Shown here: one piece after another, positions 11,539 to 16,193 of the stretch
How positions within the stretch are numbered: position 1 is the first letter of the stretch
How the letters are laid out: every line of letters begins with the position of its first letter
Virus record (IMG/VR): IMGVR_UViG_3300047392_000167
Coordinates: 1 to 26,598 of that record
Strand: one strand, 5' to 3'
DNA length: 26,598 nucleotides
From: a virus
Notes under the pieces: generated by a model
Database searches by the model: none
What the model saw: the letters and a program-made list of their open reading frames with translations, nothing else
Told to the model about the DNA's origin: nothing
Position numbers and translations under genes: made by a program

Positions 11539-11554
11539 GTAGCAAAAATACAAC
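11539..11554 (+). promoter_or_regulatory. Degenerate copy of upstream palindrome (promoter P1)
   Basis: GTAGCAAAAATACAAC, matching 14 of 16 bases of the perfect palindrome found before P2 and P3. It ends 21 bases before the -35 box, the same distance as at P2. Only the right half-site is intact here. Confidence 0.5.
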
Positions 11555-11575: not shown

Positions 11576-11604
11576 TTGACTTTTTGTTACGCAGGCCGTA
11601 TAAT
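11576..11604 (+). promoter_or_regulatory. Sigma70-type promoter P1
   Basis: TTGACT (11576-11581), 17-base spacer, TATAAT (11599-11604). The spacer contains GTTACGC, also present at P3 and nearly so at P2 and P6. Predicted +1 is about 11611, the A of an in-frame ATG. It drives the gene at 11638. Confidence 0.9.
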
Positions 11605-11938: not shown

Positions 11939-11963
11939 GCAAGCACTACATGTTAGTGCTTGC
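11939..11963 (+). terminator. Hairpin after first accessory gene
   Basis: A 10-bp perfect stem GCAAGCACTA / TAGTGCTTGC with loop CATGT. The same hairpin recurs at 12413-12437. No long T run follows, so termination may be partial; it may also protect the RNA 3' end. Confidence 0.6.
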
Positions 11964-12002
11964 TAACCTTTATATGTTAGTGACTACTGACCAATAGTTA
12001 CC

Positions 12003-12018
12003 GTTGTAAAAATACAAC
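12003..12018 (+). promoter_or_regulatory. Palindromic upstream site, P2
   Basis: GTTGTA-AAAA-TACAAC, perfect 6-bp arms with a 4-base centre. It ends 21 bases before the -35 box. Repeated exactly at 12478-12493. Its fixed place suggests an operator or activator site, or an UP-like element because of the A runs. Confidence 0.6.
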
Positions 12019-12039: not shown

Positions 12040-12068
12040 TTGACTTTGCGTTATGCTTTTGCTATAAT
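12040..12068 (+). promoter_or_regulatory. Sigma70-type promoter P2
   Basis: TTGACT (12040-12045), 17-base spacer with GTTATGC, TATAAT (12063-12068). Predicted +1 is A12075, which is also the first base of a leader hairpin. Confidence 0.9.
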
Positions 12069-12074
12069 AACAAC

Positions 12075-12109
12075 ATAGCAACAAAAAGCATGTCGCACAA
12101 CGTTGCTAT
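12075..12109 (+). ncRNA. 5' leader stem-loop, copy 1
   Basis: ATAGCAAC (12075-12082) pairs perfectly with GTTGCTAT (12102-12109) around a 19-base loop ending GCACAAC. The stem begins at the predicted transcript start. The paralogous leader at 12549-12588 keeps the stem with changed bases. Likely a 5'-end stabiliser or a translation control element of the mRNA. Confidence 0.55.
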
Positions 12110-12131
12110 ACTTTAACAAAAAAAGGTCTAT

Positions 12132-12398
12132 ATGTTAAAACATTATACAATAGTTGGCGTCAGCAAACGCAACAACAAGTATGCTTATCGTTTTTCAAAC
12201 GGTAATGCTAAAGTACGCTTCAAGCAGTTGCTTGCAACTGGTAATACTGAAGTAATACTTTACACTTTAGCAGAGCCAACACTACGCAGTTTTGCCGCAC
12301 AGCAGTGTCGCAACAACATAGACAACAATGTTGCAAGCGAGCACATGTCTGCATGCTTTAACTTTGTCAACGCAGAGGGAACTGTTTACAAGTTGTAA
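12132..12398 (+). CDS. Hypothetical small basic protein
   Basis: An 88-residue protein; AAAAAAAGG lies about seven bases before the ATG. The N-terminal half (YTIVGVSKRNNKYAYRF, residues 5-21) reads as alternating beta strands with basic residues. The second half is helical with two Cys. No family recognised. The stop codon lies inside the left arm of a long hairpin (12395-12441). Single-gene transcription unit under P2. Confidence 0.65.
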   Translation: MLKHYTIVGVSKRNNKYAYRFSNGNAKVRFKQLLATGNTEVILYTLAEPTLRSFAAQQCRNNIDNNVASEHMSACFNFVNAEGTVYKL

Positions 12399-12441
12399 GC
12401 AAGCACTAACCAGCAAGCACTACATGTTAGTGCTTGCTTAC
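12395..12441 (+). terminator. Nested alternative hairpins at gene end
   Basis: GTAAGCAAGCACTAA (12395-12409) pairs over 15 bp with 12427-12441. An inner copy AGCAAGCACTA (12412-12422) competes for the same right arm (12428-12438) with loop CATGT. The outer stem includes the stop codon of the upstream gene, so ribosomes ending there should favour the inner stem. Confidence 0.6.
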
Positions 12442-12477
12442 CTACGTAAGTTAGTGACTACTGACACAGAAGTTACC

Positions 12478-12493
12478 GTTGTAAAAATACAAC
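12478..12493 (+). promoter_or_regulatory. Palindromic upstream site, P3
   Basis: Exact second copy of GTTGTA-AAAA-TACAAC, ending 20 bases before the P3 -35 box and preceded by AGTTACC as at P2. Confidence 0.6.
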
Positions 12494-12513
12494 AAAAAAA
12501 TAACAAAAAGTGC

Positions 12514-12542
12514 TTGACATCCTGTTACGCTTTTGCTATAAT
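12514..12542 (+). promoter_or_regulatory. Sigma70-type promoter P3 (perfect consensus)
   Basis: TTGACA (12514-12519), 17-base spacer with GTTACGC, TATAAT (12537-12542). Both boxes are the full consensus. Predicted +1 is A12549, again the first base of a leader stem. Confidence 0.92.
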
Positions 12543-12548
12543 AACTAC

Positions 12549-12588
12549 ATAGACAGCAAACAACGCACTTTTGCACAACGCTGTTTAT
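12549..12588 (+). ncRNA. 5' leader stem-loop, copy 2
   Basis: ATAGACAGC (12549-12557) pairs with GCTGTTTAT (12580-12588), one G-U, around a 22-base loop ending GCACAAC as in copy 1. Compared with copy 1, both arms have changed while pairing is kept. Confidence 0.55.
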
Positions 12589-12612: not shown

Positions 12613-12807
12613 ATGCAAAGTTTATTGCAACAAAAACTTGCCAGCTACGCAGTAGCACAAGCATTTTTAGACACACTAACGGATGCACAACTGCAACAAC
12701 TGCATGCAGTGTTAGTAGATGACAGTGTAGCAGGCATTACATTGCGTCGCAACTTGCATGTTGTTGTATCAACTACAATGCTCAACCGCGAGGACGCACA
12801 AGCGTAA
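12613..12807 (+). CDS. Hypothetical small helical protein
   Basis: A 64-residue protein from ATG 12613, preceded by AAAAAGG. An upstream TTG at 12571 in the same frame lies in the leader hairpin and is rejected as the start. The sequence is Gln-, Leu- and Ala-rich (SLLQQKLASYAVAQAFL, residues 3-19; DAQLQQLHAVLVDD, 23-36) and should fold as an amphipathic helix pair. No family recognised. It shares a transcript with the next gene. Confidence 0.6.
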   Translation: MQSLLQQKLASYAVAQAFLDTLTDAQLQQLHAVLVDDSVAGITLRRNLHVVVSTTMLNREDAQA

Positions 12808-12974: not shown

Positions 12975-13007
12975 AGCAAGCATACACAATGTATGCTTGC
13001 TATTTTT
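12975..13007 (+). terminator. Rho-independent terminator, copy 1
   Basis: An 11-bp stem AGCAAGCATAC / GTATGCTTGCT (12975-12985 with 12991-13001), short loop, then ATTTTT. Part of the exact 62-bp repeat. Confidence 0.85.
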
Positions 13008-13036
13008 AAAAGTTACCGCAAACAAGGAAAAACATG
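12975..13036 (+). repeat. 62-bp exact direct repeat, copy 1
   Basis: Identical to 13293-13354: terminator hairpin, AAAAGTTACCGCAAAC, ribosome site AAGGAAAAAC and the ATG of the next gene. The two copies are 318 bases apart and flank the gene at 13034. Confidence 0.95.
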
Positions 13037-13282
13037 TCAAACACATACACTTTTAACAACTTAAACTTTACAGCAGAACTCATGCAAGATGCAGACTTTG
13101 TTCAAAGCATTGAGGAAAGCATCAACGATCACTTGCCAATGACAGCAGACTTTGATTACAAGTATTGCATTGACACCAACACATTGCAAGTCAATATCAA
13201 CTGCGACTTGTCTGTAGAGCAGTTGGCAGATTTAGCAGACTGCTACAGCGAACTGTTGTTGATGCCGCAAGCATTTGCCTAA
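13034..13282 (+). CDS. Hypothetical acidic small protein
   Basis: An 82-residue acidic protein, with many Asp and Glu and only one basic residue visible (Lys43). AAGGAAAAAC supplies the ribosome site. The start is shared with the 62-bp repeat. No promoter lies directly before it, only the terminator of the preceding unit, so expression must come from read-through or from processing of that RNA. Strong acidity is common in DNA-mimic anti-defence proteins, but that is only a suggestion. No family recognised. Confidence 0.65.
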   Translation: MSNTYTFNNLNFTAELMQDADFVQSIEESINDHLPMTADFDYKYCIDTNTLQVNINCDLSVEQLADLADCYSELLLMPQAFA

Positions 13283-13292
13283 CACACACACA

Positions 13293-13325
13293 AGCAAGCA
13301 TACACAATGTATGCTTGCTATTTTT
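13293..13325 (+). terminator. Rho-independent terminator, copy 2
   Basis: Same 11-bp stem, short loop and T run as at 12975-13007, now between the acidic protein and the methyltransferase. Confidence 0.85.
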
Positions 13326-14142: not shown

Positions 14143-14155
14143 GGTTTTTGGTTGC
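14121..14155 (+). terminator. Terminator-like hairpin before P4
   Basis: AACCC (14126-14130) pairs with GGGTT (14142-14146), then TTT. GCAAC (14121-14125) can extend the stem by pairing with GTTGC (14151-14155). It overlaps the stop of the AT-hook gene and the -35 box of P4. Confidence 0.5.
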
Positions 14156-14180
14156 CCAGAATCCAAAACAGCAGTATAAT
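14152..14180 (+). promoter_or_regulatory. Promoter P4
   Basis: Perfect TATAAT at 14175-14180. At 17 bases upstream is TTGCCC, a poor -35 (three of six), but exactly conserved at P5. Predicted +1 is the A of ATG 14187. The weak -35 suggests activator help or a middle-class promoter. Confidence 0.65.
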
Positions 14181-14836: not shown

Positions 14837-14885
14837 GTAGGGTGTTGCGTAAAAGCAACAACCCTACTAATAATAGGGTTTTTGG
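14837..14885 (+). terminator. Two mutually exclusive hairpins
   Basis: Hairpin A: GTAGGGTGTTGC (14837-14848) pairs with 14855-14867, with one bulged A at 14860 and loop GTAAAA. Hairpin B: AACCCTA (14860-14866) pairs with TAGGGTT (14874-14880), loop of seven, followed by TTT, a standard terminator. A and B share 14860-14867, so only one can form. Confidence 0.65.
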
Positions 14886-14923
14886 TTGCCCATAACACAA
14901 AAGAGCAGTATAATAAACACATG
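14855..14923 (+). repeat. Promoter module C, copy 2
   Basis: Same length and order as 14121-14189. The hairpin loop and the promoter spacer differ; the stem, TTGGTTGCCCA and GCAGTATAATAAACACATG are kept. Confidence 0.85.
14886..14914 (+). promoter_or_regulatory. Promoter P5
   Basis: TTGCCC (14886-14891), 17-base spacer, TATAAT (14909-14914), then AAACACATG as at P1 and P4. Predicted +1 is A14921. Confidence 0.65.
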
Positions 14924-14971
14924 GACAGCAAAAACAAGGTCCATGACACACTTAACACACAGGAGTTAGAT

Positions 14972-16119: not shown

Positions 16120-16148
16120 TTGACTTTGCTACGCTAACTAAGTATAAT
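16120..16148 (+). promoter_or_regulatory. Sigma70-type promoter P6 (replication operon)
   Basis: TTGACT (16120-16125), 17-base spacer with GCTACGC, TATAAT (16143-16148). A 9-bp stem TAACAACAC / GTGTTGTTA (16150-16158 with 16169-16177) overlaps the predicted start, so a shorter form of it would begin the transcript. Confidence 0.9.
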
Positions 16149-16193
16149 ATAACAACACACAGATCAAAGTGTTGTTACAACTGGAGAGAAAAT

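Follow-up and report, generated by a model that had tools for sequence, protein, structure and literature searches.

Short messages of a lineage of largely uncultured phages appear to begin with a hairpin. In the 26,598-nt stretch of viral DNA that we analysed in full (the window; IMG/VR record IMGVR_UViG_3300047392_000167), leaders behind sigma-70 promoters form stems whose placement is set relative to the -10 element. Related phage contigs carry such stems with arms that covary, and in a subset the loop is conserved; all of this was observed in silico. By analogy with the ompA mRNA of Escherichia coli, we judge it slightly better than an even bet (a probability of roughly 0.55) that the main function of the hairpin is that of a 5'-terminal stem-loop, shielding the triphosphate end from RppH and RNase E. 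The promoters and leaders of the window are as follows.

11576..11604, + strand: promoter P1, of the same promoter series; short leader with no real hairpin (an internal contrast)
12040..12068, + strand: promoter P2, TTGACT-17-TATAAT, with TG preceding at -14
12075..12109, + strand: leader hairpin of P2, arms AUAGCAAC (12075-12082) and GUUGCUAU (12102-12109), loop AAAAAGCAUGUCGCACAAC
12132..12398, + strand: ORF behind P2, 88 aa, no known family
12514..12542, + strand: promoter P3, TTGACA-17-TATAAT, 12/12 consensus
12549..12588, + strand: leader hairpin of P3, arms AUAGACAGC (12549-12557) and GCUGUUUAU (12580-12588), loop with inner GCA/UGC
12613..12807, + strand: ORF behind P3, 64 aa, no known family
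14152..14180, + strand: promoter P5; short leader with no real hairpin (an internal contrast)
14886..14914, + strand: promoter P6, TTGCCC-17-TATAAT
14921..14944, + strand: leader hairpin of P6, AUGGAC / GUCCAU (DNA ATGGAC...GTCCAT), 7 bp counting the preceding C-G pair; weak match to the covariance model (E 0.18)
16120..16148, + strand: promoter P4, TTGACT-17-TATAAT
16150..16177, + strand: inverted repeat at P4, TAACAACAC / GTGTTGTTA

Strict sigma-70 promoters with a 17-bp spacing occur four times in the window, against 0.17 expected. At P2 and P3 the first base of the stem is the seventh base after a perfect TATAAT, the canonical +1, and is an A preceded by C. In DNA letters the arms are ATAGCAAC (12075-12082) and GTTGCTAT (12102-12109) at P2, an 8-bp stem, and ATAGACAGC (12549-12557) and GCTGTTTAT (12580-12588) at P3, a 9-bp stem with one G-U pair; both loops end in GCACAAC. 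The original prediction had described exactly these arms, their start on the predicted +1 and this loop ending, and our analysis confirmed all three. It had also proposed that the arms change with pairing kept. The pairing holds; the step from P2 to P3 involves a difference in length, and the clean compensatory changes come instead from relatives. Taken alone, the hairpins have minimum free energies of -9.3 kcal/mol (P2, z -2.8) and -9.8 kcal/mol (P3, z -3.4), and each leader folds into one outer hairpin with 2-3 bp of inner pairing, to which P2 adds only a weak 5-bp pairing. Besides these two hairpins, both of them real, the window holds two more that had been missed, at P6 and P4.

P5 (14152-14180) and P6 each come immediately after a terminator-like hairpin. 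Before P6 this is AACCCTACTAATAATAGGGTTTTTGG, and its tail runs into the -35 TTGCCC to form a fused terminator-promoter unit (14860-14914). Strong inverted repeats also follow small genes at 11939-11964, 12395-12441, 12975-13001 and 13293-13319. Two of the four are nearly identical intrinsic terminators; the other two lack a T run and have two alternative pairings (12395-12410 with 12426-12441). These repeats may protect 3' ends.

P2 and P3 alone are little proof of a conserved structure; the proof is the position of stems across the window and a relative. This close relative, G006 (contig L004/L241, 20 kb), was found through the gene behind P2 and has eight promoters of the window kind, six of them with a hairpin; its arms include AUAGACAGU/GCUGUCUAU, AUAGCG/CGCUAU (with two different loops) and AAGCAAC/GUUGCUU. 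The promoter set of the window and G006 was gathered without looking for hairpins and comprises 11 strict sigma-70 promoters. At 8 of them a stem of 6 bp or more begins at offset 5 or 6 (6-7 nt) after the -10; 500 sets of shuffled leaders gave a mean of 1.0 and a maximum of 5. When the stems of this set are counted by where they begin, the maximum is at offset 6 from the -10. Judged by the predicted start, the stem therefore lies at most a few nucleotides from the 5' end of the mRNA, as in ompA.

The distance from the -10 to the ATG is mostly 44-89 nt in hairpin leaders and 17-38 nt in plain leaders, with P1 of the window and G004 5893, both short, scored as hairpins on weak stems and L247 611 (57 nt) falling below the hairpin threshold. 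We interpret this shift in length as a short A-rich leader having gained the hairpin as a module of some 25-35 nt, inserted between the start site and the ribosome site. The constant feature across the hairpins is the paired 5' end. Inner structure varies, from a long A-rich loop with an inner GC/GC pairing to short loops in other hairpins; in L348, L244, L012 and L293 an A.A mismatch is followed by 2-3 more pairs, and L071 has a 12-bp stem with the loop AUAG. In the hairpin leaders that were read out, the Shine-Dalgarno sequence and the ATG lie downstream of the 3' arm, and the ribosome site is thus outside the hairpin, as in ompA. Such an arrangement could also serve translation directly, if the hairpin were a spacer or insulator that keeps the ribosome site from pairing with varying upstream sequence, or a standby site, with the start at +1 incidental. 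In several leaders (for example L293 and L069) the stem does end close to the ribosome site and never includes it. We nevertheless consider this unlikely, given that it leaves the sharp +1 peak of stem starts unexplained and that the distance from stem to ATG varies.

Second, and independent of the position test as evidence for a conserved hairpin, is a covariance model built from ten leaders, all from other phages and none from the window. It finds both P3 (E 4.4e-5, 28.5 bits) and P2 (E 9e-4, 23.5 bits). A sequence-only model of the same alignment scores them at 11.7 (P3) and 12.0 (P2) bits; pairing adds 11-17 bits and so carries half or more of the signal. Within the ten-leader set, 98% of cells are paired with one two-sided change, the stems being too alike for more than weak covariation, and the inner GC/GC pairing of the loop is invariant and therefore without covariation support. 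The collected +1 hairpins comprise 14 distinct stems, all fully paired. All six outer positions vary on both sides of the stem: A-U is replaced by G-C at position 3 and by C-G at position 5, for instance, and C-G by A-U or G-C at position 6. The count is descriptive, since 3' arms without the conserved loop were chosen by complementarity. Only 15 of 150 combinations of arms from different classes cross-pair.

The original prediction had suggested building a covariance model and looking for homologues with covarying pairs; different, still-pairing arms are present in at least eight related phage contigs. Its proposal of an undescribed, conserved leader RNA is thus supported, both by these covarying homologues and by Rfam 15, where neither the window nor six carrier loci had a match and a relaxed threshold brought up only scores far below the gathering cut-offs. 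The roles that it put forward, stabilisation of small mRNAs or a shared translation switch, are candidate functions. Neither the region nor single leaders gave a meaningful blastn match to known phages, and we found no description of the hairpin family in the literature on phage leader hairpins.

The same changes in the arms bear on whether the inverted repeats act as DNA, as operators at the start site for a repressor dimer with the RNA hairpin a by-product. Overlap with the start site is the classical position of an operator, and the repeat at P4 extends upstream of +1. We regard a DNA operator as very unlikely because the arms change together: they differ between sites of one phage, which would not be possible for the operator of a single repressor. 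Nor is the loop core palindromic, and a separate palindrome that keeps its sequence, GTTGTAAAAATACAAC, lies upstream of P1-P3. Its copies at 11539-11554 (the first, reading GTAGCAAAAATACAAC), 12003-12018 and 12478-12493 are about 20-25 bp upstream of the -35 elements, and it recurs at five G006 promoters (L004 1320, 1784, 2259, 2699 and 4311). Because its sequence is kept, this palindrome looks like a DNA operator or activator site.

P2 and one G006 leader share the loop AAAAGCA-NNN-YGCA. We searched viral contigs for TATAAT followed by a loop of this type, with a loose pattern and then a strict one, and obtained 15 stretches. Some eight distinct phages account for the 14 that lie behind a promoter, and L364, the fifteenth, lacks both promoter and hairpin. 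Almost every stretch has a stem at +1, usually AUAGACAGY / GYUGUYUAU. The resulting type-A subset, ten leaders from several phages, is defined by the near-invariant loop AAAAAGCAYNYYGCAAAAU. In bacterial genomes the same loop pattern gave 13 matches, a chance-level number, none of them behind a promoter with a +1 hairpin.

In most carriers whose fetched DNA covers these genes, the terminase, portal and capsid proteins are 42-83% identical to those of the window, which places them in one siphovirus lineage. L259 matches only other window proteins, and L293 has no terminase, portal or capsid match to the window within its 3.7-kb stretch. The carriers are a group of largely uncultured, water-borne bacterial viruses. 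The known relatives that were scanned (Phage DSL-LC06 and the pelagiphages HTVC026P and HTVC202P) have no such hairpins, and the primase used as bait found no relatives. As far as searched, the conserved loop is restricted to one phage lineage. Our data do not support the idea that +1 hairpins are general to phages: among the loose promoter + CATAG matches listed, mostly from unrelated phages, the excess is modest (2.5 stems of 7 bp or more expected at +1, eight observed), and offset +10 has an excess of similar size. Two phage contigs with no detectable protein similarity to the window (L138 167-250 and L209 6685-6770) carry a 10-bp +1 hairpin, AUAGGCAGCA AAGG UGCUGUCUAU, possibly an independent case.

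Could the hairpin exist mainly to present its loop? An RNA-binding protein of phage or host might read AAAAAGCAYNYYGCAAAAU and jointly raise or lower the translation or decay of a set of small genes. Ten leaders of several phages keep the loop near-invariant although their flanks and downstream genes differ, and its pattern is linked to promoters in phages and at chance level in bacterial genomes. We hold this to be possible yet doubtful, as many +1 hairpins of the same phages lack the type-A loop, no binding protein is known, and a recent spread of the module could account for the conservation. Protection alone, for its part, does not explain the type-A loop, which points to an extra factor. 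We tentatively raise a combined possibility, that of a new class of phage regulatory RNA in which a modular 5'-cap hairpin has an invariant A-rich loop read by a dedicated phage or host factor, and a small-gene regulon would be protected or released together. The best candidate for an antisense partner of the loops on the + strand of the window is 11 nt long and lies inside a gene.

Part of the conservation of the 5' arm has another source. The arm CAUAGACAGCAAA is also found without a hairpin, and leaders that start with CATAGACAGCAAA or nearly so and have no 3' arm occur in G006 (16184), G008 (6870) and unrelated phages such as Acinetobacter phage Acibel004; these hairpin-free copies suggest that some of the conservation belongs to the promoter or leader. 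The start CATAGACAGCAA(A) directly after the -10, again with no hairpin, recurs in phages of different hosts (L004 3942, L017 4480, L085, L099 and Acibel004, L381 1965-2045), and Enterobacter phage EC151 (L378 2979) has the hairpin-free variant CATCGACAGCAAA in the same place; this start may have a role of its own, in promoter escape or translation. In Acibel004, a conserved sequence between promoter and ribosome site has been described in eight genes (PMC4128745). Like the hairpins it is repeated between sigma-70 promoters and ribosome sites, and one site reads CATAGACAGCAAACAAC, similar to the 5' arm of the present phages. In contrast to the window leaders, which start AAACAACGCAC... or AAAAAGCAUG... 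and continue to a 3' arm, the Acibel004 element has neither 3' arm nor hairpin, and its consensus AAGCAAACAACTTAAAAGG takes in the ribosome site; the window leaders do not carry this consensus in front of the start codon and resemble it at the leader start only.

Behind a hairpin leader there is, in most cases, a single short ORF that belongs to no known family. Gene 13034-13282 of the window has a plain leader behind a terminator; its 95% identical G006 ortholog (L004 2393-2638) is in another place, with its own promoter and a type-A hairpin. Promoter-leader-gene cassettes seem to move as units.

This gene content also bears on a further idea, a cis-acting antiterminator that would bind the RNA polymerase that made it and allow passage through intergenic terminators. 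The HK022 put RNA is of this kind, with two stem-loops near the transcript start, a conserved sequence and an action on polymerase. The hairpins do lie at the very start of phage transcripts, as structured RNAs, and terminator-like hairpins lie between genes. Unlike the conserved two-hairpin put element, the window leaders fold into one short hairpin of varying sequence (P2 and P3), and behind hairpin leaders are mostly single short ORFs. Their size and variability make a put-like function highly improbable. Translational operators of the type bound by the MS2 coat protein contain the start codon or lie next to it, and their effect is to repress translation; they resemble the leader element in being small hairpins near a ribosome site, with a conserved loop here in a subset, and differ in that the leader hairpin sits at +1, at a distance from the ribosome site.

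We favour protection of the 5' end because stems mostly begin at offset 5-6 after the -10, the loops and the inner structure differ among hairpins that all keep a paired 5' end, a model from other phages finds P2 and P3 with pairing adding 11-17 bits, the ribosome site is outside the stem and hairpin leaders are longer than plain ones, and because the constant +1 stem matches known mRNA protectors (PMC3997798). Both RppH and RNase E require the 5' end to be single-stranded, and adding a 5' hairpin to an mRNA makes it more stable (review PMC3997798). Stabilising 5'-terminal stem-loops are those of E. coli ompA and papA (Emory, Bouvet and Belasco 1992; Bricker and Belasco 1999, as cited in PMC3997798). 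The phage element resembles these in having a 5'-end hairpin with a free ribosome site downstream, and the block to RppH and RNase E is predicted here; it differs in recurring at many promoters within a single genome, in its covarying arms and, for a subset, in a conserved loop.

We infer the start sites and every functional step of protection as follows. The promoters would drive short mRNAs in which transcription begins on the first base of a 6-12 bp hairpin. With no free 5' nucleotides, the paired end would hinder conversion of the 5' triphosphate by RppH; RNase E would find no docking site, and the message would live longer. An unpaired Shine-Dalgarno sequence just downstream would keep translation on, and in the subset the conserved A-rich loop probably binds an additional factor. 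All of this assumes that the host would use RppH and RNase E in the known way. Two further observations count against protection: the P4 repeat starts about 5 nt upstream of the canonical +1, so that maybe only 4-5 pairs are transcribed, and hairpins are absent from several promoters of these phages. The G006 promoter that resembles P4 (L004 7052) has AAGCAAC/GTTGCTT at about +1.

A few bacterial genes have known hairpins at the 5' terminus, and such hairpins also feature in engineered expression constructs. The phage element would work like this known kind; new is its use as a repeated, exchangeable module with a conserved loop in a subset. Many sigma-70 promoters of the lineage appear to employ the 5' hairpin as an interchangeable module, which one gene has and another lacks, and leader length changes with it. 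Hairpin and plain leaders are thus natural test cases for how phages keep the transcripts of host polymerase alive. The hairpins would offer a ready series of natural 5' stabilisers, and the invariant loop is a lead to an RNA-binding partner.
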